Below, piece by piece: positions 21,187-38,115 of a stretch of DNA of 64,000 nt. The position numbers and the translations under genes are program-made. Under the pieces are notes generated by a model. It was not told the origin of the DNA. It ran no database searches and saw only the letters and a list, made by a program, of their open reading frames with translations. Position 1 is the stretch's first letter; every line of letters starts with the position of its first letter. Source of the stretch: Cryobacterium glucosi (GTDB taxonomy: Bacteria; Actinomycetota; Actinomycetes; Actinomycetales; Microbacteriaceae); the NCBI RefSeq assembly GCF_004402235.1, contig NZ_SOFS01000031.1, forward strand, positions 10,087-74,086. The letters run 5' to 3'.

Positions 21187-21425
21187 TTCGTTGCCGCCCC
21201 GGCGATACTCTCCACCGCTCGGGCCAGGGTGGACATGGCACAGCATTCTAGAGGCCTGATGAGACTCGTCGCCTCGAAGGTATCTCCGACGTGTTGAATG
21301 TAGCCGAGGAGAACAGAGGCCGGCTCATCCCCGTCTCGCTGACCTCGTACTTGCCAGGTCGTCGCGGAAACGGCGACTAAGCTAACGCTATCGGGCTGAC
21401 GTGAAGCTAGGACATGTTCGGGCAT
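21183..21425 (-). CDS. Small conserved protein coupled to the sigma factor
   Basis: An 80-residue protein. The ATG at 21425 has a GGAGG box 5 bases upstream. Residues 5-60 (VSLVAVSATTWQVRG, then SVLLGYIQHVGDTFEATSL) form a small alternating-strand domain known from short actinobacterial hypotheticals. Its stop overlaps the sigma-factor start (ATGA), so both are made from one message and it may modulate that sigma factor; that is inference from position. Confidence 0.6.
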   Translation of the reverse strand: MPEHVLASRQPDSVSLVAVSATTWQVRGQRDGDEPASVLLGYIQHVGDTFEATSLIRPLECCAMSTLARAVESIAGAATK

Positions 21426-21923
21426 GAACGCCTCCAAATCACAATGGGAGGTTCAGTACACATGCTGAAAAGAGAACTCTCAAGAGGGTTGACGTACCCC
21501 TGCGCACCCCTGTATGGGGGCGTCCAACCGTCGCTACGTCAAGTCGCGATGAGTTGGAAAGAAACCTCTCGTTGGTCAGCCGTAAGGTCGTCTGGGACCG
21601 ACGGCCTCGGCAAAAACGACATGCTCCTCGAACGGTGCAGGTCCTACGAACCTGCTGACATTTGGGCGATGAAAGCGTACCGACGCACGGTTTCGGATGG
21701 AGTGTTTAGACCTTGATGCATGCAGGGTCGTGATGATGTTCAGCGTCAGTTGTTTGATACTGGGGCGTACGCGAAATTCGCACGCAGAAGAAAGCTACTG
21801 ATGGAGAGAGCCTGCACTCACGAGAGGGCCAGTGGCCGCCTCACATCGGTGCAACACGCCCATCAGGGCCGGGGTTACACCACGCTATTGGACGCAACCG
21901 GCCACGCGCGGCGGCGCGACCCT
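21426..21923. other. Gene-poor gap with a possible IS1182 start
   Basis: 498 bases with short overlapping frames only. A plus-strand frame from 21720 begins MQGRDDVQRQLFDTGA, which resembles the first residues of IS1182-type transposases, then loses similarity after about 15 codons. The rest shows no recognised gene. Confidence 0.3.
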
Positions 21924-22373
21924 CTAGTCGAGCTGGGGCCACTCTTCTTTGTGACTGAATCCCCTTGAGTTGTCGACCATTTTTAAGTAGGTCGGCGCCA
22001 GTGCCCACAGCGCGACGTTCACAATAATAGGCACCGGGGATATCGCGGCGAACAGTTTTCGCCCCCGGTCGGCCTCCGCGCCAGCAAGCAGAGTCGACGT
22101 TCCGCGCAGCTGAATACCCTGAAGCTTCGTGACGTCTTTTTCTTGGGTGGAAATAGTCGCGGCGACGGTGGGATTGGCCAGCATCAGGCGCCCATGGGCC
22201 GTGTTCGGGCTCGTGACAAACAGCAGCCTCCGCCCGGGCAGGTCAAACGAGTAGAACACACTCGCCGCCCACACCGCGTTTTCGGCGCTGGCGGCGAGCG
22301 ACACCACGTGGTGGCCGGCGATATACCGGTCGATCGCCGCGGTGAACGCGGGCGATATGGTTCCGGCGGCCAT
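21924..22373 (-). CDS. Pyridoxamine 5'-phosphate oxidase-like protein (YhbP type)
   Basis: A 149-residue split-barrel flavin-binding-fold protein. It contains HHVVSLAASAENAVWAASVF, RRLLFVTSPNTAHGRLMLAN and PTVAATISTQEKDVTKLQGI, the order of the PNPOx-like YhbP/UPF0306 group. It is the last gene of the ubiD-ubiX-DUF554 operon, 3 bases after the DUF554 stop. A flavin-related role beside a prenyl-FMN system is an attractive guess, but cofactor binding cannot be proved from sequence. No signal peptide. Confidence 0.82.
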   Translation of the reverse strand: MAAGTISPAFTAAIDRYIAGHHVVSLAASAENAVWAASVFYSFDLPGRRLLFVTSPNTAHGRLMLANPTVAATISTQEKDVTKLQGIQLRGTSTLLAGAEADRGRKLFAAISPVPIIVNVALWALAPTYLKMVDNSRGFSHKEEWPQLD

Positions 22374-22376
22374 GGT

Positions 22377-23087
22377 TTAGAAGACCAAAGACCAGAGCGT
22401 GGTCACCGGAATAACGAAGATCAGCGCCGGCAGCATATTCGCAATCGGGAAGTTTTTCAGGCCGCAGATTCGGAAACCTGTTGCCAGCATCAGAACTCCA
22501 CCCACGGCGGAGAAGTTGGCCTCTGCGCCACCGCTCATCAGCGGCTCAATGAACACGGCGCCGAGCTCAATCAGAACCATGATGACGATCTGCGGCACCG
22601 CGACCACTCCGACCGCGTAGCCCAGGGTGGTGGCAAAGATTGCAGAAGTCAGAAGGTCGAGCGCGGCCTTGGCGATCAGAATCGACGGGTCGCCGGTCAT
22701 GCTTTCGTGCAGAGCGCCAAAGATTCCGGTTCCGCTCGCACAGAAGAGCACCACAATGGCCACGTACTTCTCGAGGAATTCTTCATGGGTGATGTTGCCG
22801 GGTATCGGCACAACCCGTCCGATGAAGCGGTTTAGCGCCGATGCGGCCACGCCGATGACCTTCTCGACGTAGGCCAGCTCCCCTACCACGCAGCCGAGGA
22901 GAACCGAGATAACCATCACGCCGATGGTATCGACCTTGACGATCATCACCACGCCCATGGCCATCGAAGCCACACCGAAGATTGCGGGCAGGCCGACTTT
23001 CAGTCGTGTGGGCATACGACCGCCGAGGGCCGCACCTCCAAAGCCGCCGACCAGCACGGCTACGGAGTTGATAATAGCGCCTATCAT
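22377..23087 (-). CDS. DUF554 family membrane protein
   Basis: A 236-residue protein with about seven hydrophobic helices and Gly-rich TM starts. It opens MIGAIINSVAVLVGGFGGAA; other marks are GVASMAMGVVMIVKVDTIGV, VIVLFCASGTGIFGALHESM and FSAVGGVLMLATGFRICGL, the last ending before the C-terminal helix (NMLPALIFVIPVTTLW). This is the DUF554 (YdfK-like) transporter-like family. Its ATG overlaps the ubiX stop. In this operon it may export or import the aromatic acid or product of the decarboxylase; the substrate is unknown. Confidence 0.85.
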   Translation of the reverse strand: MIGAIINSVAVLVGGFGGAALGGRMPTRLKVGLPAIFGVASMAMGVVMIVKVDTIGVMVISVLLGCVVGELAYVEKVIGVAASALNRFIGRVVPIPGNITHEEFLEKYVAIVVLFCASGTGIFGALHESMTGDPSILIAKAALDLLTSAIFATTLGYAVGVVAVPQIVIMVLIELGAVFIEPLMSGGAEANFSAVGGVLMLATGFRICGLKNFPIANMLPALIFVIPVTTLWSLVF

Positions 23088-23665
23088 TGGACCTTCTTTG
23101 ATTCGGCTCCCCAGCGGGGGAAGGTGTCGATGTGGATGTCAAACAGGTCGAGAACCCGACCTACGGTCTGGTCAACGATGTCGATCGACGACGTCGGTCT
23201 GATGTAAAAGGCGGGGACCGGCGGGAAGATGATCCCGCCGGCCTCGGTCACAGCCGTCATGTTGCGCAGGTGCACCAGTGACAATGGGGTTTCCCGCGCG
23301 AGTAGCACCAGGCGGCGACGTTCCTTGAGGATGACGTCGGCCGCCCGCGAGACCAGCGATGCGCTGACGCCGGTGGCTATCTCGGCCAGAGTGCGCATCG
23401 AGCAGGGCGCTATGACCATGCCGTCAGTGACGAAAGAACCCGAGGAGATCGACGCTGCGATGTCGGAGGGCTTGTGCACAAAATCGGCAAGGCCCTCCAA
23501 CTCGTGTTTGGACAGCACCGTTTCGTACTCCCGGGTGATCTGCCCGGAAGGTGATATGACGAGATGGGTTTCGACGTCCTGTCCGCGCAGCACGTCAAGC
23601 ATCCGAACGCCATAGGCGATTCCGCTAGCACCGGTGATGCCGACAATCAGGCGCTTGCGCGCCAC
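23084..23665 (-). CDS. ubiX: Flavin prenyltransferase UbiX
   Basis: A 193-residue UbiX. The FMN loop GITGASGIAYGVRML comes first, then SSGSFVTDGMVIAPCSMRTL and EIATGVSASLVSRAADVILK, with the prenyl-phosphate-binding ERRRLVLLARETPLSLVHLR. It attaches dimethylallyl phosphate to FMN to make prenyl-FMN, the cofactor of UbiD. The GTG start directly follows the ubiD stop (TAGGTG). Length is exactly that of the family. It supplies cofactor to the decarboxylase encoded upstream in the same operon. Confidence 0.95.
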   Translation of the reverse strand: MARKRLIVGITGASGIAYGVRMLDVLRGQDVETHLVISPSGQITREYETVLSKHELEGLADFVHKPSDIAASISSGSFVTDGMVIAPCSMRTLAEIATGVSASLVSRAADVILKERRRLVLLARETPLSLVHLRNMTAVTEAGGIIFPPVPAFYIRPTSSIDIVDQTVGRVLDLFDIHIDTFPRWGAESKKVQ

Positions 23666-25198
23666 CTAGTCCTCGTACTCGGGGAAGTGAAGGCTCGGAG
23701 CCCATGGCCGGGGGTCGACTTCCTTGAACTGGGCGCGGGCGAAAACATCCTTCATGTGGAACGGTGCGGTCGCGTCAAAGATCGTCTTTGCGGTCACGCC
23801 CTTCACGGGAAGGCGCGGGTCGTAGTCCGGCTGCTGGCTAGGGTCAAGCACGTGCCCCATCACACCGGGAACCACGATGAGGTCGAGGTCGCCCTGCATC
23901 CGGGTGGTCATCGCCCACAGCACGTCGTCGGAGTCGAACGGGTCAACGTCTTCGTCCACGAGGATGACGTTCTTCAGCTCGCTGTAGGTGGCCAGGGCCA
24001 CCAGAGCGGCCTGGCGGGCACGGCCGTCATCGAACGCCTTGGACTTGTTCACCTGCACAACCGCGAGCAACTTGCCGCCGCCGGCGGTATGTGCGTAGAC
24101 CTGCGAGACGAAGCCCGGCAGGGCCGCGTCCAACGCGCGAAGGATCGAGGCCTCAGTCGGGATTCCGGCCAGCGACGTATGCTCCTCGCCCGGGCCGACG
24201 AGAGTCTCAAGGATCGGGTGCGTCCGGGTGGTCACCGCCGTGACCTTGAAGATCGGCAGCGCGGCGTTGGCCGGGCCGTTGTAGCCGGGAAACTCGGGCA
24301 TGGCGTGCCCAGTGTCCGAGTGCAGGTCCTCGCGCATACGCACGTTCGGCAATAGCTCGCCCTCGATGACGATCTCAGCGCGCGCGATGGAGTGCTGGTT
24401 CACAGTGATGGCCTTGACCAGCTCGACGGGCGAGTGGCGCAGCCCGCCAGCGACCTGCAACTCGTCGTAACCGAACGGTGTGGTCGGCGCCTCGAAACAG
24501 GCTCCGATGTAGACGGCGGGGTCGAGACCCATGTTGATGGTTATCGGAAGAGCCTCGCCCTTGGCCTCGGCCTTGAGCCGGAACGCGTCGATGTGGCGGC
24601 CCGGCGCGAAGAAGATCGACAGCTCGTCCTTGCCCTGCACTGCGATACGGTGAATAGTGACGTCGGAGTGGCCATTTTCGGGGTCGGTGCCCAGCAGCAA
24701 TCCCATACAGAAGTACGGTGCGGCGTCTTCCGGCGTGTTCGTCGGGGCCGGCAGCAGTGTACGGATGTCGAAGCCGGGGTCGGAGGCGAGGTAGATCTTC
24801 TCCTGCACAGGTGCATTGTTCTTGTCCACAACGACGGGTGCGAGCGCCGCGTTGAAAGCGGCGGCCACAACCTGGTTCACTGTCTTCGGGGTGGCGCCGA
24901 GCAGGGTCGCGACGCGGCTTCGATCGGCGAGCACACCCACCACAACACGCACGTCATCGAAGCCGATGATCTTGTTGAACTGCATCGCGGGGCCACGACG
25001 AGTGGGCCGCATCACCGTTCCACCAGCGCCGACGTGCTTGTACACGCCCGCCAGTTCGGCGTTCGGGTCGACCGGATGATCGGTCTGGATGAAGTTCTTC
25101 GGATCATCGGCGATGAGGGCGAGGGCCGACCTGAGGTCGTTAACCTGTCCCTGCGGCGCCTGGGCTATCGTCGGTTCCGCGCTGTTGATAAGCGCCAT
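23666..25198 (-). CDS. ubiD: UbiD family decarboxylase
   Basis: A 510-residue UbiD-type (prenyl-FMN) decarboxylase. The ATG at 25198 has AGGAGG upstream. Marks: DHPVDPNAELAGVYKHVGAG near the start; the prFMN/metal-binding region SDVTIHRIAVQGKDELSIFF; PITINMGLDPAVYIGACFEA; AGGLRHSPVELVKAI; the conserved Glu in AEIVIEGEL; and late VDPFDSDDVLWAMTTRMQGD. It decarboxylates, or reversibly carboxylates, an aromatic or enoic acid. With MarR upstream and UbiX downstream, this is most like hydroxyarylic/phenolic acid decarboxylase operons. The VdcD-type small subunit is absent. Confidence 0.93.
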   Translation of the reverse strand: MALINSAEPTIAQAPQGQVNDLRSALALIADDPKNFIQTDHPVDPNAELAGVYKHVGAGGTVMRPTRRGPAMQFNKIIGFDDVRVVVGVLADRSRVATLLGATPKTVNQVVAAAFNAALAPVVVDKNNAPVQEKIYLASDPGFDIRTLLPAPTNTPEDAAPYFCMGLLLGTDPENGHSDVTIHRIAVQGKDELSIFFAPGRHIDAFRLKAEAKGEALPITINMGLDPAVYIGACFEAPTTPFGYDELQVAGGLRHSPVELVKAITVNQHSIARAEIVIEGELLPNVRMREDLHSDTGHAMPEFPGYNGPANAALPIFKVTAVTTRTHPILETLVGPGEEHTSLAGIPTEASILRALDAALPGFVSQVYAHTAGGGKLLAVVQVNKSKAFDDGRARQAALVALATYSELKNVILVDEDVDPFDSDDVLWAMTTRMQGDLDLIVVPGVMGHVLDPSQQPDYDPRLPVKGVTAKTIFDATAPFHMKDVFARAQFKEVDPRPWAPSLHFPEYED

Positions 25199-25252
25199 GA
25201 GGATCCTCCTACGGATTCACGAGCCCTACTAGGCCCAGACACCAGCGTAATC

Positions 25253-25266
25253 CTTAACTAGTTAAG
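25253..25266. promoter_or_regulatory. MarR operator palindrome
   Basis: CTTAACTAGTTAAG is a perfect 14-base palindrome 55 bases upstream of ubiD, downstream of the marR stop codon. It has the size and symmetry of MarR-family sites and lies in AT-rich DNA likely to contain the ubiD promoter. Confidence 0.75.
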
Positions 25267-25303
25267 TATTTTACCCCCGGTGTAAGCCACCCGGCTCATG
25301 GAT

Positions 25304-25831
25304 TCAGCCCGGCTTGTGAGCGAGCAGACGCTGCAGCAACCGGATGAGCTGGCGCTGGTCAGCTTCTGCCAGTCCACCCAAGCTCGCTGCCTCGGCAGCG
25401 AAAAACTCGTCGAGCACCCCGTCCAGCACGGCGCGCCCATCGTCAGTCAGCGCAAGCTGGTACTGGCGGGCGTCCTTCGGATCCAAGCTGCGCGTGACCA
25501 ACCCCATCTCATGCAGACGCCCGAGGCGCTTCTTCATTCCCGCCTGCGTCACGAACATCTGGCCAGCAAGCTGTGCCTGCGTAACAAACGTGTCACCATC
25601 GGCGCGATAAAGCGCCGCGAGGATATCGAAAATCTCCCGTGACAAGCCATGGGCGGCCAACACAACATCCGCACCGGAACGAAGGTGTATGGCGGTGCTT
25701 CTCACCAGGGCGATGAGCTCGACCTGCTGGGAATCATGGCCCCGCCGTTCCCACTGAGCGGCGAGTTCGTGCACGGCGCGAGAGGAATGAGTGTCTTCGT
25801 CTGCGCCAAATTGTGTCTCAGGCGAAGCCAT
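25304..25831 (-). CDS. MarR family transcriptional regulator
   Basis: A 175-residue winged-helix regulator. Recognition helices are in LSREIFDILAALYRADGDTF, then VTQAQLAGQMFVTQAGMKKR, and the wing is GLVTRSLDPKDARQYQLALT. The N-terminal 40 residues are an extended helix. It is encoded just upstream of the ubiD operon on the same strand, and probably senses an aromatic acid and controls ubiD through the palindrome at 25253. Fusion of the two units by read-through is possible, as no strong terminator lies between. Confidence 0.93.
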   Translation of the reverse strand: MASPETQFGADEDTHSSRAVHELAAQWERRGHDSQQVELIALVRSTAIHLRSGADVVLAAHGLSREIFDILAALYRADGDTFVTQAQLAGQMFVTQAGMKKRLGRLHEMGLVTRSLDPKDARQYQLALTDDGRAVLDGVLDEFFAAEAASLGGLAEADQRQLIRLLQRLLAHKPG

Positions 25832-27480: not shown

Positions 27481-28142
27481 ATGGCTCTAGACCAGGCTGC
27501 CCTGCTCAACCTGCTGGGAGAACTCAAACTCACCGATGTCACCGACCGTATCCGCGTCGCGACGGAAACTCTCTATCAAGAATTGATCGATGCGGAAGCG
27601 ACCGCGTTCATCGGAGCCGCCCCATTCGAGCGCTCGGGCGCTGGCTGGCAGCGCTGCCGGGTGCACTTCATCCGTAATGTCCTGGCCGTGATCCCGAAGG
27701 GGTCCCAGGACATGGTCGCCTCGATCATCCGCACCATCTTCGCTCAGCCCGACCGTGAGCACATCGAGAAGCAGTTCCGTAAGGTCGCCACGATACTCGG
27801 CCGGTCCCACCCGAAAGTCGCCGCGATGCTCGTCGACGCGCAACCCGACCTGCTCGCTTTCGCCGCGTTCCACAGGCGACACTGGCGACAGATCTGGTCC
27901 ACGAACCTGCTGGAACGGGTAAATAAAGATATCAAACGCCGCACCGACGTCGTCGGCGTGTTCCCAACGCCGCCGCCCTGTTGCGCCTGGTCGGGTCGGT
28001 TCTGATCGAGCAGCACGACGAGTTGGAAGCCGGCGAACGCCGCTACTTCTCTGAAGCATCCATGCTCGAACTGGCCACCATGAACAACCCCATCGAGGTC
28101 CTCGACGAGGCGGTGATCCTCCCCGAATTCGCCGCCGCCTAA
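27481..28142 (+). pseudogene. IS256-family transposase with internal deletion and frameshift
   Basis: The N-terminal 52 residues (MALDQAALLNLLGELKLTDV ... AFIGAAPFER) are joined directly to the C-terminal third (GWQRCRVHFIRNVLAVIPKG ... IWSTNLLERVNKDIKRRTDV). About 200 residues holding the first two catalytic Asp are missing, while the last catalytic Glu in NLLERVNKD remains. A further one-base loss near 27965 shifts the tail; the other frame reads NAAALLRLVGSVLIEQHDEL and ends PEFAAA at the TAA 28140-28142. It is inactive. Confidence 0.88.
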
Positions 28143-28383
28143 ACTAAAATAATTGATCCGCACGGTGTTGAGAAACTCCGCCACTCAGCGGGACGTGACC
28201 TCGGAAACCACCCACGGTTACGTCAGGAAAGCCGCATTTCTGGTCAGTTCGGCATGACCAATAACAGCGTATTCCGGTCGACAGAATGTCCGGATAGGAG
28301 ACGGTGTAAGCGCTCGGCAGACCTAGTTGTGCCCGTTGTTCAGCTTGCCGTTTTTGACAAAGAGCGAGTAGCCGTTCTGCGCG

Positions 28384-28842
28384 TCAGGGGCGCGCGGACC
28401 GAGTGCGCACCTCGGCTGCGACCGACGTGAGCGCCTCGGTGAAGGCGGTGAGCTGCATAGCAGTGAGGCTGGTGGTGCAGGCGGCGAGCATCTTCGAGAA
28501 ATCTCGGTGGATGCCGCTCATCACGTCGTGCCCATGCTGGGTCAGTTCAAGATAAAGGCTGCGGCGGTCGCCGGGATGGTCGACCCGGTGCAACAGGTTC
28601 GCGTCGACTAACCGGCGGGCGATGGCTGTGATAGCACCGGTGGTCATACCCAGGTGGTGGGCCAGGTCCTTGGGCGTGATGCTCATCGACCGACCCACCC
28701 TGAACAGCGCACGCAACTCGGTGCCGCTCACACCGGAATCTTGCGCGATGCGCTGGCGGTTGGCATCGAAGGCGCTCACTAACAGCGTAGCCGCCGCCGG
28801 AAAACCGGTGAGGGTGTGCGCGAGTGGTGCGGGTTGGGCCAT
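28384..28842 (-). CDS. MarR family regulator next to the rhodopsin gene
   Basis: A 152-residue MarR protein from the ATG at 28842 with GGAGG upstream. The winged helix reads SGTELRALFRVGRSMSITPK, DLAHHLGMTTGAITAIARRL, then LLHRVDHPGDRRSLYLELTQ. Flanking helices dimerise. It is divergent from the rhodopsin gene, with 157 bases between carrying a perfect palindrome, so control of the rhodopsin (by an unknown ligand) and of itself is the simplest reading. Confidence 0.9.
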   Translation of the reverse strand: MAQPAPLAHTLTGFPAAATLLVSAFDANRQRIAQDSGVSGTELRALFRVGRSMSITPKDLAHHLGMTTGAITAIARRLVDANLLHRVDHPGDRRSLYLELTQHGHDVMSGIHRDFSKMLAACTTSLTAMQLTAFTEALTSVAAEVRTRSARP

Positions 28843-28949
28843 GTCGCCTCCGGTCGGCCCGGAGCGAGTCGTGTCACTCACGGTGGGGGGAGCGCATTTT
28901 ATCGAATCCTTCCCAAACACGCTCAGAATGTATTTTAATGTTGATGTAA

Positions 28950-28962
28950 CTTACTCAGTAAG
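28950..28962. promoter_or_regulatory. Palindromic operator before the rhodopsin gene
   Basis: CTTACTCAGTAAG has perfect 6-base arms around a single C, 38 bases before the rhodopsin ATG, in an AT-rich stretch facing the divergent marR gene. Candidate MarR site overlapping the promoter. Confidence 0.65.
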
Positions 28963-28999
28963 ACATATCAGGCACTGACAGACCCCGATGGAGTAGCTC

Positions 29000-29815
29000 A
29001 TGATTCCCGACATTCTCTCGCTTGGTCAATACGACACCGTCTACAACTTTCTTTCGCTGGTGATCGCCGCGCAACTGTTCACGGCGGTGTACCTCCTGAT
29101 CGCGCTGCCGCGCATTCTGCCTCGGTACCGGCAGGCAATCACAGTCGCCATCGTGGTCTGCGGTATCGCCGCGTACCACTACTTCCGCATCTTCGATTCG
29201 TTCAAGGCGGCATTCGTGACCGACGCCGTGGGTGGCCGAGGCGACTACGCTCAGGCCGCCGGGGCGGGATTCAATGAGGGCTACCGTTACGTGGACTGGC
29301 TCCTTACCGTGCCCTTGCTGCTGGTCGAGCTCATCGCCGTGCTCGCGCTGGCCCGGTCGGTGCAGCGGGGTCTTCTCGTGCGGCTCGTTCCGGCTGCCGC
29401 GCTCATGATCATCCTCGGCTACCCCGGCGAGATCAGTGGCGACAACGGTCTCCGTGGCCTGTTCGGACTGCTGTCAACCGTCCCGTTCGCCTACATTCTC
29501 TATGTTTTGTTCGTGCAGCTGAGTAAGTCGCTGAACCAGCAGCCCGTGGGCGTGCGACGCACACTGAGCCAGCTACGCTTCTTGCTGTTGCTGAGCTGGG
29601 GCGTCTATCCGATCGCCTATCTGTTGCCGCTGCTGAGCATCGCCGGTCCTGATGCCTGGGTCTACAAACAGGTCGGCTACTCGATCGCCGATATCCTGGC
29701 CAAGGCCGTCTATGCGCTGATCATCTTCCAGGTAGCGCGCATCAAATCTTTCGACGACGACCCCACGTTCGCCGACGTCGAGCGCTCCCGCGACGGGGCT
29801 CCGGCGCGCACCTGA
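29000..29815 (+). CDS. Light-driven proton-pumping rhodopsin (actinorhodopsin/xanthorhodopsin type)
   Basis: A 271-residue seven-helix type-1 rhodopsin; the ATG at 29000 follows GGAG. Helix C (YRYVDWLLTVPLLLVELI) has Asp99, Thr103 and Glu110, the DTE set of outward proton pumps (acceptor Asp, donor Glu). His60 in AAYHYFRIF is the partner of the acceptor Asp in proteorhodopsin-like proteins. Lys235 in helix G (SIADILAKAVYALIIF) binds retinal. Leu107, at the proteorhodopsin 105 position, predicts green absorption. The long B-C loop and GYPGEISGDNG segment suit the xanthorhodopsin/actinorhodopsin branch. Retinal genes (blh, crt) are not in the window. A MarR gene is divergent. Confidence 0.95.
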   Translation: MIPDILSLGQYDTVYNFLSLVIAAQLFTAVYLLIALPRILPRYRQAITVAIVVCGIAAYHYFRIFDSFKAAFVTDAVGGRGDYAQAAGAGFNEGYRYVDWLLTVPLLLVELIAVLALARSVQRGLLVRLVPAAALMIILGYPGEISGDNGLRGLFGLLSTVPFAYILYVLFVQLSKSLNQQPVGVRRTLSQLRFLLLLSWGVYPIAYLLPLLSIAGPDAWVYKQVGYSIADILAKAVYALIIFQVARIKSFDDDPTFADVERSRDGAPART

Positions 29816-29831
29816 CCCTGAGGTAGGCGTC

Positions 29832-30425
29832 ACGTTGCGGCGCGCGGGTAGACGGGGCGGCCCCTGGGCACGAGGCCGTGAGTGCTGCCGCGGCAGTATT
29901 GTGCTGCAGGATCTATTCGAGAAGGCTGAGCGGATGCCGGCGCAGCGCTGCGCGTCGGTCTGCACCTGTCAAGTCTGCGTCGATCAGCCCGCCGATGAGG
30001 GCGCCCATGAAAGTGTCGCCGGCAATGACGGTGTCGGCCACCGTCTTCAGGCGCACACACACCTGCCCTGAGAGCTGGGCGCGAACGCTCTCTCCTCGCC
30101 CTGGGTGACGATCACAACGGCCGGCTCGGCGGCCAGCCAGAACACTACCGTCTCGGCGAGATCACGATCGGGGTGCACCTAGAACAGGTCTGCGTCGCTG
30201 ACCTTCGCGACGTCGGCGAGACGCGTAAACTACGCCGCCCTCGACTGGGCGGCCACAGAGTCATGGATCAGCGCCGGCCGGATGCTCAGATCAAACGTGA
30301 TGGTGGCCACCGCGCGGCTGGTTTCCGGCAGGCGTGCCGCGTTAGACGCGCCCGGCTCGAGCGCCGTCGCGACCGACCCGAGGTGCAGCTCGTCGGCGGC
30401 GTCCGCCAGCTCAGTTTCCACGGCC
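29832..30425 (-). pseudogene. PfkB-family sugar kinase remnant
   Basis: Minus-strand pieces of a ribokinase/fructokinase-like protein. 30421-30235 reads ADELHLGSVATALEPGASNA, then AVATITFDLSIRPALIHDS. A second frame reads RLADVAKVSDADLF, a TAG, then VHPDRDLAETVVFWLAAEPA and VVIVTQGEER. A third frame gives VADTVIAGDTFMGALIGGLI (the PfkB signature with catalytic Asp), a TAG after LSLLE, then the closing AAAALTASCPGA. The N-terminal substrate domain is missing. Two nonsense codons and two frame changes make this a clear dead gene. It lies tail-to-tail with the rhodopsin gene. Confidence 0.8.
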
Positions 30426-30684
30426 GGGCTTCAGATGCCGCTCACCTCGCCGGCCGCCTGACGCTGGGCGAGAGCTCGGAGACGTCGCAGCAGAACAGCA
30501 GGACCGGCATGGATGAAGCTGAATAGATATCATATGCACTGCATTCTGGATTCGGCTGTTGGTGGCTATCAGGTGACGGCCGGGCTACGTAATGGCCTCA
30601 GCAAGAATGCATCTGGGAACTTGGAAGAAGTATTTATCGATCGCCGCCGCCATGGAGTATGTTATCAGTTGGGCTGACAGCTTA
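30426..30684. other. Intergenic between the pfkB remnant and the IS4 element
   Basis: 259 bases with no recognised gene; probably the lost N-terminal part of the sugar kinase replaced by unrelated DNA up to the IS end at 30685. Confidence 0.35.
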
Positions 30685-32150
30685 GCTTCAGTACCGTTCA
30701 GTTAAGCATTGCCGTGTTACGTTGTGGGTATGGCGCGTACAGGGTGGGTGAAGCCGGTCTCTGACCGTCGGTTGTCTGATTTGGTGTCGGTCGGCTTGCT
30801 GACGCGTGTTTTCCCTGGGGACGTTATTGACGAGGTGGTCAAGGCGGCGGGTCGGACTGAGCAGCGAAACCGGGCTTTGCCGGCGCGGGTGATGGCGTAT
30901 TTCTCGATTGGGATGGGTTTGTATGCCGAAGCGTCGTATGAGGATATGTTTGCTCAGCTGACGGATGGGTTGTCGTGGTCCTCTGGCTGGTCGGAGGCTC
31001 ATGTGCCGCCGTCGAAGTCGGCTATCTTTCAGGCGCGTCGCCGGCTCGGATTTGAACCGGTGCGGGATCTGTTTGCCCGCGTTGCGCGGCCTCTGGCTGG
31101 GCCAGACACGCCGGGGTCGTGGTTGGCTGGGCGGCGATTGATGTCCATCGACGGAACGATCCTGGATCTGGCCGACAGTGTGGTGAACGCAGAGTTCTTT
31201 GGCCGCCCGCCGGTCAGCCGTGGCGAGCAATCTGCCTTCCCGCAGGCGCGCTTGGTTGCGTTGGCTGAGTGCGGCACTCATGCGATTCTCGACGCGGTGA
31301 TCGGCCCATGCACGACATCGGAAATTGAACTCTCCCGGGAGCTCGCCGGCCGCTTCGAGCCGGGCATGCTGGTCTTGGCCGACCGTGGCTTCTACGGCTT
31401 CCGGCTGTGGGAGCAGGCGGCAGCGACGGGCGCTGACCTGCTCTGGCGGGTCAAAACGAACCTCCGCCCACGGCACCTGGAAACCCTCGCTGACGGATCC
31501 TGGCTGGCCACGATTATCCCGACATCTGGCCCGGGGCGGCAGTCGACAACGCCCTTGACCGTGCGGGTCGTTGACTACACCATCGACGACGGCCGCGACA
31601 ATCCCGACGGCTACCGGTTACTGACGACGATCCTTGATCCGGGCGAGGCATCTGCGGAAGAACTCGCGACCGTGTACTCAGAACGGTGGGAGATCGAGTC
31701 TGTGTTCGATGAGTTGAAAGCGCATCAGCGCGCCCAGCGCATGGTGATGCGGTCTAAATCCCCGGACCTGGTCAAGCAAGAAATCTGGGGCCACCTCTGC
31801 TGCCACTACGCGATCCGAACCCTCATGGTCGAGGCCGCGCAGCACGCTCACCGCGACCCCGACCGGGTCTCCTCCATCGCCGCACTCCGCATCGCCCGCC
31901 GCTCCGTGGCCCAGGGCGATTTTTCCCCCTCCGCGACCTGGCCACGCCAAAGCGGTCTGGCGCCTCGCCATCCTCGTCCTCGTCCTCGTCCGACGGCTGA
32001 ACCCCGCGCGGCGACGCCGGTCAAACCCCCGCGTCATCAAACGCAAGGTCTCAAAATGGCCCGCCAAACGCTTCCACCACGCGCACTGGCCACAACCCCG
32101 CCACGAGCCAGAAATCGCCATTTAAACCCTTAACTGAACGGTATTGAGGC
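30685..32150 (+). mobile_element. IS4-type insertion sequence, about 1466 bases
   Basis: The left end at 30685-30706 and the reverse complement of 32129-32150 are 22-base inverted repeats with two mismatches (shared core TACCGTTCAGTTAAG). They enclose one DDE transposase gene. TTA flanks both outer edges (30682-30684 and 32151-32153), a possible short target duplication. The right edge abuts the stop codon of the DUF6671 gene. Confidence 0.85.
30730..32125 (+). pseudogene. IS4-family DDE transposase, frameshifted near the C-terminus
   Basis: The ATG at 30730 gives MARTGWVKPVSDRRLSDLV. An N-terminal IS4-type domain is followed by the catalytic triad: Asp in RRLMSIDGTILDLADS, Asp in MLVLADRGFYGFRLWE, and Glu in VYSERWEIESVFDELKAHQR. 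At 31920-31930 (GATTTTTCCCCCTCC) the open frame leaves the family pattern. The neighbouring frame continues as PPPRPGHAKAVWRLAILVLV and ends EPEIAI with TAA at 32123-32125. A single-base change in a T/C homopolymer run explains this. It may be a real mutation or a read error. The catalytic domain is intact, so activity could persist. Confidence 0.8.
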
Positions 32151-32992
32151 TTAGGAGTTACAGTAATCGCACCATTTTGGATCTGTGCGAGCGTGATTTC
32201 GTGGGGTCCGGGTTTGGTAACTGCACCGGCCGCAGCCGTGGATATCGCCTGCGATGGTCTGGGTTGCCGATCCGTAGAAGGAGCAAGGCGCGCCGCGTTC
32301 GACGTTGATGTGGCCAAACCCGGGCGCTCGGCAGTGCGGACACTCTGTTGCAAGTCGCGGGGCCATTTTTCTCAGAGCGTCCGGATGGCTGTGGCGAGGG
32401 ACGGTGCCTTGTGGGCGCGGTAGTCCGGAAGTATCACGACGGAGTGGTGCTGTTTCAGAAGAGCTTTAGTGGTGTCGCCTAGGACCTCGAGTTGGGTGAT
32501 GTTTTTGTAGGCGGTCGTGTCGTTGTTTTGGGTGCTCTGCAGGATCACTCCTTGGCCCGGGAAGCCGATGGCTGACGCGAACGTGAGGGCTTCGCGGGCG
32601 CTGGTGATGCGTCGTCCTCCGGCTACTGGCGAGGTGGTGACGCTGCCTTCGACGATTTCCAGGCCCAGGGTGTTGTCAATGAAGATGAGAAGTTCACTGC
32701 TCTCCACGAAGAGTCCGAATCCGGAGGTGAAGGTTCCTTCGGAGGCGAGGCCGAGGCTTGTTCCGGCGATTTGCATGCCGAGTCGGGCTTTCGCTCGGGC
32801 TGAGTCGCGCGGGCTGAGGGGGCGGGGGATGTCGCCGGCGAATGTTCCAAATTGGTCGGTGTCGATGCCCGTCGCCGCGGTGCCGGTTGCGCCCAGTGAG
32901 TTCTGGAACGCGGCGTGGGCGAGCAATTCTTTGGCGTGCATCGTGGCGAAGGTGATTGTGCGTCCGGTGTAGGCCGTGCGGGGTCGGGTCAT
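32151..32992 (-). pseudogene. DUF6671 family protein, split by a frameshift
   Basis: The N-terminal part (32992-32372, 206 residues) starts TGRTITFATMHAKELLAHAA and has FVESSELLIFIDNTLGLEIV, ITSAREALTFASAIGFPGQG and VVILPDYRAHKAPSLATAIR, then hits TGA. Five bases later an ATG (32366) opens the C-terminal zinc-ribbon part with CPHC, CGRC and CDYC pairs (MAPRLATECPHCRAPGFGHI). In the family both are one chain of about 280 residues. So this is either a one-base frameshift or a gene split with re-initiation. The stop TAA (32151-32153) touches the IS4 end. The start overlaps the PII-like stop by ATGA. Function unknown. Confidence 0.75.
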
Positions 32993-33312
32993 TGGAAGTA
33001 GTCGGGCCTGGAGACGTAGGTGTCGGAGACGAACATGACACCACTGGAGGTGCTGAGAAGTTCCTGGACGGCGTCGATCAGCTCGCCGGCGTTGTCGGGC
33101 GGTAGGACCGTGATGAGCATGGTGAGGGTGTCGTATTCGTTGAAGAGTAAGGCCCCGGAGTGTTGGCCGTGGTGTCCGATTCCGGACACCCCTGACACGG
33201 ACGTGTAGCCGGTGGCTCCGGCGGATGTGATCAGTTCGCGGATTGCGGGGGCGTCGCGGGCGGGCACGACAACCTCAAGCCGGGTCATATGAGTCAAGTT
33301 GTTCATGGTCAT
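32989..33312 (-). CDS. PII-like protein of the DAB operon
   Basis: A 107-residue PII superfamily protein. It has RLEVVVPARDAPAIRELITS (beta1-alpha1), GATGYTSVSGVSGIGHHGQH (the T-loop region), and LITVLPPDNAGELIDAVQEL, followed by GVMFVSDTYVSR. The T-loop Tyr/uridylylation site of GlnB is absent, as in SbtB/CPII-type proteins that bind adenyl nucleotides or bicarbonate. Overlaps with dabA (ATGA at 33309) and DUF6671 (ATGA at 32989) put it in one coupled message. It probably gates the DAB transporter in response to carbon or energy status. Confidence 0.8.
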   Translation of the reverse strand: MTMNNLTHMTRLEVVVPARDAPAIRELITSAGATGYTSVSGVSGIGHHGQHSGALLFNEYDTLTMLITVLPPDNAGELIDAVQELLSTSSGVMFVSDTYVSRPDYFQ

Positions 33313-35735
33313 CTTCCTTTCAGCGTGGTGGGGGCGGCCTTCCAGCCGTATGGGGTGTAGCGGTGCCAGGGGGCCGCTGGGTCGGTGTGTGCGGTGAGGG
33401 TGATCCAGTCGTTGTCGAGCAGGTTACGCAGCACCTGGTTGCGGGAGACGATGCGTCCGATGCTGTCCAGGGGCGCTTGGATGATGACGGTCAGGCGCAT
33501 CGGTTCGTGGAAAAGTTGGTCGCCGAGGCCGACGGATTGCCACGGCAGGCCGCGGCGCAGGTCGCCGGTGTGGCCGGTGAGAACACCGATGGTGCCGATG
33601 GCGTTGTGGATGGTTTTGGTTCCGGCGCCCAAGGTGGCGGGGTTGAGGGCGGAGAAGTAATACTGGTGGTTGATCCACTGGGCGACTACCAAGGGTGCGG
33701 TCATGATCGTTTCCAGCGCGACGCCATCCAGGTCCAACTCTGCCTGATACGAGTGGAGGAACACCCGCCGGTCCAGGTTGACGCCGCGGGTCATTTGACG
33801 CGGTCCGATGATCATGGCGGCGTTTCCGGCAAGACCCAGCTCTGGATACACTTCCGCCCAGTCGTGGGCGCGCCCCTGGACCCGGGCGGGCGAGCGCGGG
33901 GATGCTCCCGGCAGGTCCTGTGCGCGTTCTGTGACCAGCATCTTGGCTGCTGTGTGCTGGGCCCGGTCGAAGGTTCGCGCCACATCGACGTGGCTCGGTG
34001 GAATGAGGTGCGGGTCCAGGAGTGTGACGGCGTCGGTGACGGTGTTGTGCTCCGCTGCGATGAAGAAACTGTCGGAGGGGATATCGATTCCGCGGGCAGC
34101 CAGGAGGGCGCGTACGTCGGGGGCGTTGAAGATGGCGGCGGAGGCGCGGGCGTTGGCCGCTCCAGGGTTGCCGCCGCAGGCGCCACAGTCCAACGCTGAC
34201 TGGTAGAGGTTGTTCATTGACTCGGATGCGTGGCCGGCGAGTACGACCAGCGGGGCGAACTGGCCGATGCCCATCATCCGAACAGCGGTTTCAGCCATCG
34301 CGGCTCGCTCCTCCAGCGTGAACGAGTCGGCGACGGTCACGTTGCTCGGCAGAGTGACCGTCGATGGGGTCAGGAATCGGTGGATTCGTGCCGCCAGCGT
34401 CGGGAAGAGGGTGCGCAGCACGCTGACGGCGCCGTACAGCCATCCGGATACCTCCGCGAAGGCGAATGGTGTCACTGTGCCGGAGTCGGCGAGGTGGGTT
34501 GACCGCCGGAGCGCGTCCCGGGTGCGACCGCGCATGATGTGGTCTTCAGCTTTCGCTGGGTAGGTCGGGTCTTCGGTGAGGTGGTGTCGGGCGGTCAGGA
34601 GGGCCGGCAAAGAATCGATAGCCCCGCGAGCTCTGTACCGGGAGAAGCGCACGGGGACGCCGAAGAATCCGGCGAACCCGAACGTTTCCACTTCGGGGAG
34701 GACCTCGATGTGACGCCGCATTCCTTCGGACCGGGGGTCAATGCACATCACTAGTTGCAGTTGGGGACGAGGGGTAACGGGATCGGTGCCCCTGAGGGAC
34801 GGCATCAGGGTGGCGCGGTAGTGCAGCTCGTAGGCTTTTTGCCACGTCAGCGCGTGGGCGGGCAGCGGATGGGTGGCCAAGACCCGGCTCACTGCCGCGA
34901 TGTCGTCCCGGTCTCCTCGACTGCCGATCGATCGGGCAACGTGCTCGGCCCGGTGCCACAGGGTCGTTTGGGCCTCCTCGGCTATTAGCGGTTTGCGTGA
35001 CGACGGGAAAGGTGTTGTGTCGAGGACGGCTTGGATGGTCAATCTCACGCCCAAGTACGAGAGCAGGTCGATGTCCCCAATCTTCTCGGCCCGCCACTTG
35101 ATGTGGCCGACCCAGCCCGGCAGGTACTGGAGCTCGGCTCGGAGCGTCTCCGTAACCTCCTCCGCTGGGACTCCGAGTTTGACTAGCGCCCACGCCAGTG
35201 CGGCGTCGGGTTCGACGGGCAATTCGGCCACCGTCCGGCGTACCGTTCGCGGGAGTGACGGGTCCCGGCGGGCCAGAGTGCGCCACGCCTTGTAGAACCC
35301 GTGCCGCCTGTGAGGCATTGCCCACAGTGGGTCCGGGTTCAGGTAGGACGACACCCAGGTGGCCAGGTACTCGTCCAGCCAGGGCGCCGATGGTTCCGTT
35401 GCGGCGGGGGAATTCCACTGCGCGCTCTTCATGTCCAGGACCGCCACGCTCACCGCGGACACGCTTTTCCCGCCGATGGTGAGCTTCCCGGCCAGTTCGG
35501 GAATACGCTCGGCCAGGGCTGCTTCGAGGTCGGCATCGACGATGCGGCCGCGGTCCGCGTCGGCAAGGTAGGCGTCTCGGGATCGGGTCAGGACCACGCC
35601 CGGGGTGGCGGCGGCCTCGAATGGGCGAGGTTCGTGGCCTGCGAGAGGGTTCACTGCGATGAAGGACTCCACCGGCCAGGACGGCACAATGGCGTGAGCG
35701 GCTGTGGCCACCTGGGCGCGAAGAATCAAATTCAT
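33309..35735 (-). CDS. dabA: Inorganic carbon transporter subunit DabA (DUF2309)
   Basis: An 808-residue DabA. It opens with the family segment WPVESFIAVNPLAGHEPRPF. The beta-carbonic-anhydrase-like zinc site is present: Cys331 and Asp333 in LQLVMCIDPRSEGMRRHIE, His502 in VVLAGHASESMNNL, and Cys517 in DCGACGGNPGAANAR, with the same His-Cys spacing (15) as the characterised protein. DabA with DabB performs vectorial CO2 hydration, trapping bicarbonate using a cation gradient. It overlaps dabB (ATGA at 35732) and the PII-like gene. No carboxysome or RuBisCO is nearby, so in this heterotroph it likely feeds anaplerotic carboxylases. Confidence 0.95.
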   Translation of the reverse strand: MNLILRAQVATAAHAIVPSWPVESFIAVNPLAGHEPRPFEAAATPGVVLTRSRDAYLADADRGRIVDADLEAALAERIPELAGKLTIGGKSVSAVSVAVLDMKSAQWNSPAATEPSAPWLDEYLATWVSSYLNPDPLWAMPHRRHGFYKAWRTLARRDPSLPRTVRRTVAELPVEPDAALAWALVKLGVPAEEVTETLRAELQYLPGWVGHIKWRAEKIGDIDLLSYLGVRLTIQAVLDTTPFPSSRKPLIAEEAQTTLWHRAEHVARSIGSRGDRDDIAAVSRVLATHPLPAHALTWQKAYELHYRATLMPSLRGTDPVTPRPQLQLVMCIDPRSEGMRRHIEVLPEVETFGFAGFFGVPVRFSRYRARGAIDSLPALLTARHHLTEDPTYPAKAEDHIMRGRTRDALRRSTHLADSGTVTPFAFAEVSGWLYGAVSVLRTLFPTLAARIHRFLTPSTVTLPSNVTVADSFTLEERAAMAETAVRMMGIGQFAPLVVLAGHASESMNNLYQSALDCGACGGNPGAANARASAAIFNAPDVRALLAARGIDIPSDSFFIAAEHNTVTDAVTLLDPHLIPPSHVDVARTFDRAQHTAAKMLVTERAQDLPGASPRSPARVQGRAHDWAEVYPELGLAGNAAMIIGPRQMTRGVNLDRRVFLHSYQAELDLDGVALETIMTAPLVVAQWINHQYYFSALNPATLGAGTKTIHNAIGTIGVLTGHTGDLRRGLPWQSVGLGDQLFHEPMRLTVIIQAPLDSIGRIVSRNQVLRNLLDNDWITLTAHTDPAAPWHRYTPYGWKAAPTTLKGR

Positions 35736-37282
35736 GACAACACTCCTGTGGTCACAGACGGGCGGGGGATAGCTGGCGGGCGGGGAAGGGCGGTCGTCAC
35801 GGTCCTGGTGTAAACGAGGTCACGCAGGTGTGCAAACTGGCGCGGGTTGCGGGAGAGCAGTTGGACCGCGATGAGGCCGACGGCGGGCAAGGCCAGTAGC
35901 CAGGCCGGACCTGCGTTGATGGTGGTCGCGGGTTCCAACGCCGCTGTGAATAACTGCAGGAGAGCCACATATCCGAACGCCAGCAACACTATCGATGCCG
36001 TGCCGGTGAGGAACGTTCGGGTCGAGAAATTGGTGCTCAGTGCTGTGCCCAGAGCAACGCTGGCGGTCACGGCAACGAACACGAGTAGAGCGGTACTGGC
36101 CGTTGACACTGCGGGGGAGAACACCCATTCGGCTGCAGACAGCGACGCCAATGGCACCAGCACCGACAGGGTCACGGCTGCAGCGAGTGTGAACGGCGAG
36201 TAGTTCTTTCGGGGTGGAAGGTCTCGGTCGACGGCGTGCTGTCGCACTCCCATGCCGGCCCCGAGGAAGAGGGTGGATTTGAACAGGGAGTGGGCGACCA
36301 GATGGAAGATTGCTGCCGCGAATACTCCCAAACCGCAGGCCATGATCATGAACCCCATCTGCGCCATTGTTGAGAACACCAACCGGCCCTTCACATCCGG
36401 CCGGACCAGGCGAACCGCCGATGCGTAGACCAGAGTCACGGCACCGGCCATGAACACCCCGATCATGACGGCCTGGTGTGGCGCGATGGCAGGGGCGAAT
36501 CGGATCAACAGGATCGCACCGGCGTTGACCACGCCGGCGTGCATCAGCGCGGACACAGGCGTGGGCGCCGCCAACGTGAACGGCAACCAGCCGTGGAAAG
36601 GGATCTGGCTTGAACGAGCTAACGCCGAGATCACGAGCAGCGCGGCACACGACAGCTGAAGCGGCAACGGCAACGACTCCGAGACGTCACCAAGCTGGTC
36701 CAGGGGGATATCTCCTCTGGCGGTGACCAGCAGGATGGCGACAGGAATCAGGAAGACAGTGTCAGCGATCATGAACCTGGATCCGGTGCGCCGGATCCCA
36801 TCGCGGGCCTGCGCAAGCGGCCGATAGGTTGCCAAGAGCACAACGAGGGCTGCCCCCGCTCCGATCCAGGCCACGGTGAACAGGGCCACCGACCCGGCGC
36901 ACACCATCAACACGGTGAACCCGGTGAGCAGGTTGGCTGCGACGACAAACCATACCTGTCGAAGATCACCGCGGAGGTAGCGAATCGCGAAGACCTGGAT
37001 CAGCGCGCTGAGTCCCAGCACCAGCATCGACAAGATCAACGCCAAGGCATCCAGGTGCACGGAAGTGGACCCGAACACCACCTGCTCACTCTGGTGCGGC
37101 GCGGCAACGGACGCGATAGCGAACGTGAGAGTCGCGACGAACCCGACCCCGACTACGGTCGCCGATAGGCGAGCCACCCTATCCCAGCTCACCCCAGCCC
37201 AGCCAAGGAGCGCGGCGCAGAGCCCCGCGATCCACGGCGTCAGGGTCACACCACCCACAACAAGCCAATCAGACATCAGCAC
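35732..37282 (-). CDS. dabB: NuoL/ND5-like cation-conducting subunit DabB
   Basis: A 516-residue membrane protein with about 13 helices and the proton_antipo_M core. Marks: ARSSQIPFHGWLPFTLAAPT, PVSALMHAGVVNAGAILLIR (the conserved Lys/His quinone-channel style helix of complex-I-like subunits) and FHLVAHSLFKSTLFLGAGMG. It provides the cation path that energises DabA. First gene of the four-gene minus-strand operon, divergent from a small HTH regulator at 37383 across 100 bases. Confidence 0.93.
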   Translation of the reverse strand: MLMSDWLVVGGVTLTPWIAGLCAALLGWAGVSWDRVARLSATVVGVGFVATLTFAIASVAAPHQSEQVVFGSTSVHLDALALILSMLVLGLSALIQVFAIRYLRGDLRQVWFVVAANLLTGFTVLMVCAGSVALFTVAWIGAGAALVVLLATYRPLAQARDGIRRTGSRFMIADTVFLIPVAILLVTARGDIPLDQLGDVSESLPLPLQLSCAALLVISALARSSQIPFHGWLPFTLAAPTPVSALMHAGVVNAGAILLIRFAPAIAPHQAVMIGVFMAGAVTLVYASAVRLVRPDVKGRLVFSTMAQMGFMIMACGLGVFAAAIFHLVAHSLFKSTLFLGAGMGVRQHAVDRDLPPRKNYSPFTLAAAVTLSVLVPLASLSAAEWVFSPAVSTASTALLVFVAVTASVALGTALSTNFSTRTFLTGTASIVLLAFGYVALLQLFTAALEPATTINAGPAWLLALPAVGLIAVQLLSRNPRQFAHLRDLVYTRTVTTALPRPPAIPRPSVTTGVLS

Positions 37283-37382
37283 CTTTCAAAGCACGATTTA
37301 TAAAACAGGAAAAACATAGCACATGTTGAGTATCGGGAATTGAGTGTAGAGAGTCGCTCGTCGGGTGGGAGATAATCAAGAG

Positions 37383-37667
37383 ATGGCGACTTGGACGTTT
37401 CTGACCAATCACGCCCACGTGTTGCTGTGCGTGGCGGACAACCCGAACGTGCGGCTACGCGACGTCGCCGTTCAGGTCGGTATTACTGAGCGAGCGGCGC
37501 AACGCATCGTCACCGAACTGGAGGAGGCGGGATACCTGGACCGCGAACGCGAAGGTCGCCGCAACACCTACCGGCTCAACACGGCAATGCCCCTTCGGCA
37601 TCCCCTGGATCGCGACCATCGCATCGGGGAGCTTCTTTCCACCTTCGCCAACACTCGGTGTCACTAA
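37383..37667 (+). CDS. Winged-helix regulator divergent from the dab operon
   Basis: A 94-residue single winged-helix protein from the ATG at 37383. HTH: HAHVLLCVADNPNVRLRDVA, then VQVGITERAAQRIVTELEEA, with a wing GYLDREREGRRNTYRLNT. The fold is of the ArsR/MarR-like kind without a separate ligand domain; it lacks metal-binding Cys/His clusters. Divergence from dabB with only 100 bases between suggests that it controls the dab operon. Homologues of this short type are common in actinobacteria and poorly studied. Confidence 0.85.
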   Translation: MATWTFLTNHAHVLLCVADNPNVRLRDVAVQVGITERAAQRIVTELEEAGYLDREREGRRNTYRLNTAMPLRHPLDRDHRIGELLSTFANTRCH

Positions 37668-38115
37668 CAGATCCGGGGGTCCAACGATGACTGAGAAAAG
37701 CGGCCGCCCGGGCGTTGCCTTCGTAGGGATACCCCGATGCGGCTGGAACGGGACACGCTGCAGAAACTCGTTGCCGAGCTTCACGCGCAAGGGATGAGGA
37801 CAAGGGCTATCGCGCCGATTGTGGGAGTGCGCGGCGACACCGTGGTGAAAGACATTCGAGGTGGCGGAAATCCGCCACCTGCGCCGGGTCCGGAACCTGA
37901 GTCCTACTGGTCCCCCGAAGAATCATTCGTCGGGACGCACAGCCTCGAGTGGCCCTGACCCCGTGGAGTGGACACCTCACAAGAGAGAATGTCCACTTGA
38001 CGGGGTCAGGGCCGCGAGGCTATATCGTCGATCGCGCCGGCTGCGGTCACAGGGCCGCGCGGAGGGATGGTGGCCGGACCTTCTTTGTTGGTTGTTGTAA
38101 GAGGGAAGGGAAGTG
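37668..38115. other. Gap with HTH remnant and IS-end hairpin
   Basis: 448 bases. A plus-strand frame from 37737 (RLERDTLQKLVAELHAQGMR, then RAIAPIVGVRGDTVVKDI) looks like a piece of a ParB- or phage-type helix-turn-helix protein without a start context or continuation. It is followed by the hairpin at 37951-38013. The last 100 bases hold no gene. Confidence 0.4.
37951..38013. repeat. 24-base inverted repeat pair, likely fused IS ends
   Basis: 37951-37974 and the reverse complement of 37990-38013 agree in 22 of 24 bases (core GGCCCTGACCCCGT). The loop is 15 bases. The TGACCCC...GTGGACA pattern resembles terminal repeats of IS3-like elements. Two ends brought together suggest a deleted element or a MITE. 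It could also terminate transcripts from both sides. Confidence 0.65.

Follow-up and report, generated by a model that had tools for sequence, protein, structure and literature searches.

Can light help to power CO2 capture in a heterotrophic bacterium? The question is raised by a stretch of 64,000 nucleotides from Cryobacterium glucosi (the window; bases 10087-74086 of the 84,665-base contig C35, in a genome of 3.93 Mb and 48 contigs), in which a predicted proton-pumping rhodopsin (29000-29815, plus strand) and the dabB-dabA-PII-DUF6671 genes of a putative CO2-hydrating DAB system (37282-32372, minus strand) are arranged tail to tail. Cryobacterium is a cold-adapted genus that we take to be heterotrophic, and the benefit of rhodopsin light energy to heterotrophs is still debated. 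We consider it probable that the locus consists of two ordinary, self-contained modules, joined on mobile DNA and sharing the bulk proton gradient. In our comparisons the genome of the window is termed G000, and its relatives carry other G-numbers.

Anatomy of two convergent modules

The rhodopsin gene encodes 271 amino acids of the xanthorhodopsin/Gloeobacter-rhodopsin (GR) type, with a near full-length Bac_rhodopsin domain (PF01036 positions 9-221 of 224, 134.7 bits in a profile search). Common to this family and our protein are the DTE triad of proton pumps (D99, T103, and E110), the Schiff-base lysine (K235), a histidine in helix B (H60), and a glycine, G156, aligned with GR Gly178, which we take to be the carotenoid-antenna position. 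Its best solved-structure matches are 9hfk, 6nwd (GR), 9wfa, 3ddl, and 7ytb, which include psXR and xanthorhodopsin. Compared with the linked copy of G020, the ratio of nonsynonymous to synonymous divergence (dN/dS) is 0.08. We infer that the linked rhodopsin is an outward light-driven proton pump. Unlike xanthorhodopsin and GR, the Cryobacterium protein is one of three rhodopsins of its genome, has a divergent MarR gene, and comes without a Blh match.

The dab module resembles DAB2 of Halothiobacillus neapolitanus (DabA2-DabB2, 9rd0), which was characterized in an autotroph. DabA (33309-35735, minus strand), the predicted cytosolic zinc subunit of a CO2 hydratase driven by the proton-motive force (PMF), is full length (PF10070 positions 1-747 of 747, 719 bits) and adjoins the antiporter-like DabB (35732-37282, minus strand, PF00361, start at 37282 or about 37177), the putative membrane proton-conducting subunit. 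DabA residues C331, D333, R335, E428, H502, and C517 align with residues of DabA2 whose function was shown by mutation, namely the zinc ligands Cys351/His524/Cys539, the Asp353-Arg355 dyad, and the finger glutamate Glu444. The best solved match of DabB is DabB2 (9rd0_B); of the DabB2 ion pair Lys235/Asp185 the aspartate is aligned, whereas Lys235 lies opposite Arg223. A winged-helix regulator and the genes for PII and DUF6671 further distinguish the Cryobacterium cluster from DAB2. For the PII-like protein (32989-33312, minus strand, PF00543), the solved structures retrieved were limited to 5d4n/5d4l and entries of identical sequence, presumably the carboxysome-associated, bicarbonate-regulated CPII. 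The DUF6671 protein (32372-32992, minus strand) is truncated to 206 amino acids (Pfam positions 2-138 of 217), and its lost Cys-rich C-terminal part persists in a different frame at about 32150-32371 on the same strand. The G020 homolog has 280 amino acids and matches positions 2-217, the G051 copy has an earlier stop, and the dab loci of G007, G009, G010, G032, and G046 have no match or fragments only; DUF6671 thus looks dispensable.

According to excerpts of PMC13144422, DAB2 hydrates CO2 driven by the PMF and probably does not need sodium. 'CO2 hydration' therefore describes the activity more accurately than the 'bicarbonate uptake' named in the initial annotation. The same excerpts describe MpsAB of Staphylococcus aureus, likewise a DAB-family pair in a heterotroph, which has been proposed to be a Na+/HCO3- symporter. 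We infer the activity of each part in Cryobacterium, and any physiological link between them, as follows: in light the rhodopsin would move protons out, and DAB would spend the PMF, whatever its source, to convert entering CO2 into trapped bicarbonate. The bicarbonate would feed bicarbonate-using enzymes such as pyruvate carboxylase, and rhodopsin and DAB would help each other only via the shared bulk proton gradient. Of the carboxylases expected for an anaplerotic role, a pyruvate carboxylase domain (PYC_OADA) is present in the genome, but a profile search returned no match for PEP carboxylase, which argues against strong coupling.

The convergent arrangement rules out a single rhodopsin-dab operon or transcript, and with it the co-transcription for which the initial annotation had suggested a check. 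Each module has its own divergent regulator, a MarR-family gene for the rhodopsin (28384-28920, minus strand, MarR/MarR_2 profile match) and a winged-helix gene for dab (37365-37667, plus strand, profile match). MarR-like genes are found at most 1.5 kb from 17 of 42 DTE rhodopsins, in 15 Cryobacterium genomes. The winged-helix gene is present at all dab loci of the genus but one (15 of 16; the G039 locus stops at a contig end) and next to dabB in 22 of 25 additional DabA loci (in L163 and L176 the contig breaks off; L166 shows none). The palindrome CTTACTCAGTAAG (28950-28962), 50 bp 5' of the rhodopsin start, is a candidate MarR operator; the window has no second exact copy of CTTAN5TAAG, with 0.10 expected. 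The motif occurs in 7 of the 17 MarR-rhodopsin upstream stretches and is absent from 10, the linked G020 copy among them. We rejected it as an operator shared by the two modules, as none precedes dabB in the 64-kb window. A scan for promoters and terminators gave about chance level. Joint transcription or shared control is unsupported because the modules converge, have separate regulators, and confine the palindrome to the rhodopsin. The coupling of light to bicarbonate accumulation, as originally suggested, is therefore upheld only in part: both systems appear intact and their biochemistry is compatible with it, but the locus shows no sign of a dedicated coupling, of an operon, or of a regulatory site common to both.

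Between the modules lie a pfkB sugar kinase remnant (about 29940-30410, minus strand) with stops in all three frames and an IS4-family insertion sequence (IS; 30686-32148, plus strand; transposase 30709-32133, NF033592 265 bits), flanked by the direct repeat gcttag and with an empty site in G051. The rhodopsin stop is 2,556 bp from the nearest dab-cluster gene, ∼1.1 kb without the IS, and 76 bp in G020. Profile matches and residues thus bear out the reported neighborhood of a complete DTE rhodopsin, dead sugar kinase, IS4 insertion, and dab genes, and the rhodopsin is complete as claimed, but DUF6671 is truncated. pfkB-like DNA near the rhodopsin is also found in G017, G044, G004, and G001 (PfkB domain confirmed in G044 and G017), and the gene order in G044 is MarR, rhodopsin, α-carbonic anhydrase, pfkB. 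These loci identify the remnant as a passenger from the ancestral rhodopsin locus, on whose 3' side dab was joined. The dead kinase had been seen as a hint of a shift in carbon strategy; we reject this reading, since the kinase came with the old neighborhood of the rhodopsin.

Linkage and movement among relatives

We compared three samples: 57 Cryobacterium genomes (DabA in 16, rhodopsin in 38), 398 genomes of the family (DabA in 19, rhodopsin in 115, 113 of them above the Pfam cut-off), and 396 genomes of the phylum. The additional 25 DabA loci come from named genomes, with flanks of at most 10 kb that often end at contig ends. Close rhodopsin-dab pairs are present in three of the 16 DabA-bearing Cryobacterium genomes (G000, G051, and G020), always tail to tail. 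In the remaining 13, rhodopsin and dab lie on different contigs or at least 66 kb apart, and 13 of the 16 dab loci show no rhodopsin in the surrounding stretches, some of which are cut by contig ends. Conversely, only 3 of the rhodopsin loci with a MarR gene (17 in all) adjoin dab. In the family sample, close pairs are limited to G000 and G020 among the 19 genomes with DabA; one of the 25 additional loci has a rhodopsin in its flank, which is the same linked G020 case; and in the phylum sample DabA and rhodopsin share a contig nowhere except in G000. The expected conservation of rhodopsin-dab proximity is thus not observed.

The three linked loci nevertheless come from two distant lineages. 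In an rpoB tree of 54 of the 57 genus genomes (14 of the 16 with DabA; no rpoB match was obtained for G032, G039, and G043), G000 pairs with G051 as its sister (99% identity), whereas G020 belongs to another clade (91.5%). DNA homology between the contigs of the window and of G020, in pieces of at least 150 bases, comprises only 28282-29827 and 32148-37681. These segments are MarR-rhodopsin and dab with its regulator, so the homology is confined to both modules. At fourfold sites, the seven block genes diverge from G020 by 0.09-0.18, compared with 0.29 for rpoB, our single-gene chromosomal yardstick, and each lies below rpoB (Fisher p from 0.014 for PII to 3e-13 for dabB); synonymous divergence (dS) is 0.11-0.22 versus 0.32. 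From the dN/dS table we dropped the DUF6671 row for G051, in which an internal stop disturbs codon indexing, and left unused its MarR row (ratio 3.2), as very few changes underlie the ratio. Given that the block genes are less diverged than rpoB at synonymous positions, horizontal transfer of the whole block between lineages is the most economical interpretation. In this view, the MarR-rhodopsin and winged-helix-dab modules would have come together on mobile DNA within a Cryobacterium lineage, before the combined unit passed between species.

The block probably resides on different replicons, as judged by its neighbors. In G051, whose assembly has two contigs, it lies on one of 117.6 kb that also encodes a TraG/TraD-type coupling protein and is presumably a plasmid; in G020 it shares a contig with P5C reductase, which is presumably chromosomal. 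On the contig of the window there are transposases, and a MarR protein has a Replic_Relax match below the cut-off, but we found no clear replication or transfer gene among its scanned proteins. The left edge of the block is marked by a Mutator-family transposase fragment (27481-28005, plus strand, PF00872 positions 248-358 of 379 only), and an IS110 transposase also lies on this side. In PLSDB, from which records very near the genome of the window may be left out, no record matched beyond IS4. In that database, 2 plasmid records carry relatives of the rhodopsin and 123 carry relatives of DabA, with identities below 60% throughout, and no record with both was among the matches listed (60 of the 123 DabA records).

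In a tree of 42 DTE rhodopsins, the three linked proteins group together (98*) within a set of nine that also contains G001, G056, G044, G017, G004, and G038 (support 90, not starred). Separate from them stand the rhodopsins of contigs G000 C33 and G051 C1, and a long way off is the one on G020 C20. The linked rhodopsin is an additional pump gene in all three hosts, each of which has another DTE rhodopsin.

Joint movement is also what one would expect from a selected pairing, in which CO2 hydration and bicarbonate accumulation by DAB, for pyruvate carboxylase and perhaps other carboxylases, draw directly on the protons that the linked rhodopsin exports, and an advantage in cold, carbon-poor light spreads the block. 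In favor of this explanation are the little divergence that the two modules show jointly, the constraint acting on a surplus rhodopsin (dN/dS 0.08), and the PMF-driven mechanism of DAB2 (PMC13144422, in excerpt). Close linkage in only 3 of 16 genomes, the lack of a visible shared operator, the truncated DUF6671, and the failure to match Blh, RPE65, or PEP carboxylase in the genome speak against it, and we regard it as unlikely. A similarly doubtful extension is that the block represents a mobile light-powered carbon-trapping cassette, which travels between cold-adapted heterotrophs and equips its recipient with a CO2 trap and a further pump at once.

Co-occurrence and retinal supply

Absence of co-occurrence among relatives had been named as evidence against coupling, but DabA and rhodopsin do co-occur. 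Rhodopsins are present in 16 of 16 DabA genomes of the genus versus 22 of 41 others (Fisher p 3.8e-4), and in 16 of 19 versus 99 of 379 in the family (p 4.5e-7). In the family sample the DabA of G251 is a fragment and the rhodopsin of G438 is in two pieces; without both, 14 of 17 DabA genomes have a rhodopsin (p 3.8e-6). Excluding Cryobacterium itself leaves 13 of 16 versus 96 of 372 (p 1e-5), and counting by genus gives 7 of 9 DabA genera with rhodopsin versus 21 of 76 (p 0.005). The phylum sample without G000 shows no enrichment (3 of 22 versus 42 of 373, p 0.47). Rhodopsin matches below the Pfam cut-off number two in the family and five in the phylum sample; leaving them out gives p values of 3.4e-7 (family), 0.004 (genera), and 0.39 (phylum without G000).

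As the genomes are not independent, we also used a tree-based pair test. DabA requires 7 changes on the rpoB tree, and among 6 phylogenetically independent pairs in the genus rhodopsin changes in the same direction as DabA in an average of 2.6 and in the opposite direction in none (median p 0.25). The association is strong as a count, at genus and family level only, and is not proven beyond ancestry or habitat. The genus, family, and by-genus counts thus favor a selected pairing, whereas the pair test and the phylum sample do not. Enrichment in genus and family with none in the phylum sample is also what shared lifestyle would produce, if cold, light-exposed, oligotrophic Microbacteriaceae keep both systems separately and without interaction. 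In line with a general habit of phototrophy, Blh is found in 9 of the 16 DabA Cryobacterium genomes versus 8 of the 41 others (p 0.009). We give shared lifestyle a little less than an even chance; it is compatible with two self-contained modules, but alone it leaves the tail-to-tail linkage and joint movement unexplained.

Three observations weigh against two modules joined without selection for their pairing. Chance juxtaposition poorly explains why the block has been kept together in two distant lineages; the linked rhodopsin is under strong constraint though each host has another DTE rhodopsin; and DabA genomes are so consistently rhodopsin-bearing in the family. We still find two self-contained modules probable.

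The retinal supply bears on whether the pump works at all. Profile searches of the genome returned no match for Blh (PF15461), for which a check had been suggested, or for RPE65 (PF03055), which argues against strong coupling. If retinal is not made in the host, the block may represent a decaying accessory island with a non-working pump, as the truncated DUF6671 and the adjacent IS insertion would also suggest. Yet the dN/dS of 0.08 speaks for a maintained rhodopsin, and exogenous retinal is possible. Moreover, a working pump remains compatible with the missing genes, because Aurantimicrobium minutum of the same family, which lacks blh and diox1, has endogenous retinal and light-driven pumping according to excerpts of PMC7734400. 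We therefore consider a non-working pump quite improbable.

Precedents for light-aided carbon assimilation in heterotrophs come from Bacteroidetes with a proteorhodopsin, a bicarbonate transporter, and anaplerotic enzymes. In Polaribacter MED152, light raises anaplerotic bicarbonate fixation (as cited in the part of PMC3587595 consulted), which would favor a selected pairing, and rhodopsin-aided inorganic carbon assimilation has been proposed for Schleiferia (PMC4148732, in excerpt). Cryobacterium differs from both in having DAB, a pyruvate carboxylase domain, and a physically linked, seemingly mobile block. Our literature search, limited to an incomplete collection with most matches unopened, found no report of a rhodopsin-DAB pairing or joined block; one candidate on rhodopsin-bearing bacteria (PMC3832224) was discarded, as 'DABA' in the passage concerned denotes diaminobutyric acid, and another (PMC10219603) mentions rhodopsin and MpsAB in its cited references only. 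Light could thus help to power CO2 capture in Cryobacterium, and the linked block together with the family-wide co-occurrence offers a concrete genetic test of a rhodopsin subsidy to inorganic carbon assimilation.

Other rhodopsin loci and neighboring DNA

An α-carbonic anhydrase gene lies 3' of the MarR-type rhodopsin, facing it, in four Cryobacterium genomes (L076:7771-8859, L077:8203-9129, L075:6984-7781, and L197:4874-5893, with gaps of about 0.06, 0.17, 0.9, and 2.6 kb); these rhodopsins all belong to the group closest to the linked one. The G044 protein matches PF00194 and by eye has an N-terminal lipoprotein-like motif; tblastn identified relatives in G004, G001, and G038. None was found beside other DTE rhodopsins among the surroundings searched. 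These four loci raise the possibility that rhodopsins became associated with CO2/bicarbonate chemistry on more than one occasion.

Blh was detected in 1 of 15 genomes with a MarR-flanked rhodopsin versus 12 of 21 with the other DTE type (p 0.004, kinship ignored); of the 38 genomes with a rhodopsin, 36 entered this comparison. A possible signal for the MarR regulator is an apocarotenoid or retinal taken up from outside. The third rhodopsin of the G000 genome (L003, G000:C39:79766-80452) has E-A-E in helix C and an arginine in the helix B region, and by eye resembles the CryoRhodopsins described in excerpts of PMC12227055. A rhodopsin in two adjacent pieces at G008:C1:956721-957412 is likely a broken gene. 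Several distant actinobacterial DabA matches span ∼3.6 kb rather than 2.3 kb within one frame of 1300-1390 amino acids (for example, G826:C151:3215-6850 and G514:C42:6644-10282), which suggests a large insertion, either an intein or a domain.

Outside the block, the window encodes a Sigma-70 factor, a DUF554 protein, a UbiX-like flavoprotein, a UbiD decarboxylase, and a second MarR protein at 20212-25774, largely common to the plasmid-like contig of G051. At 38116-61552 it contains solute-binding protein and ABC permease genes together with GH127, GH3, LacI, and ROK-family genes, which probably form a sugar-polymer cluster.

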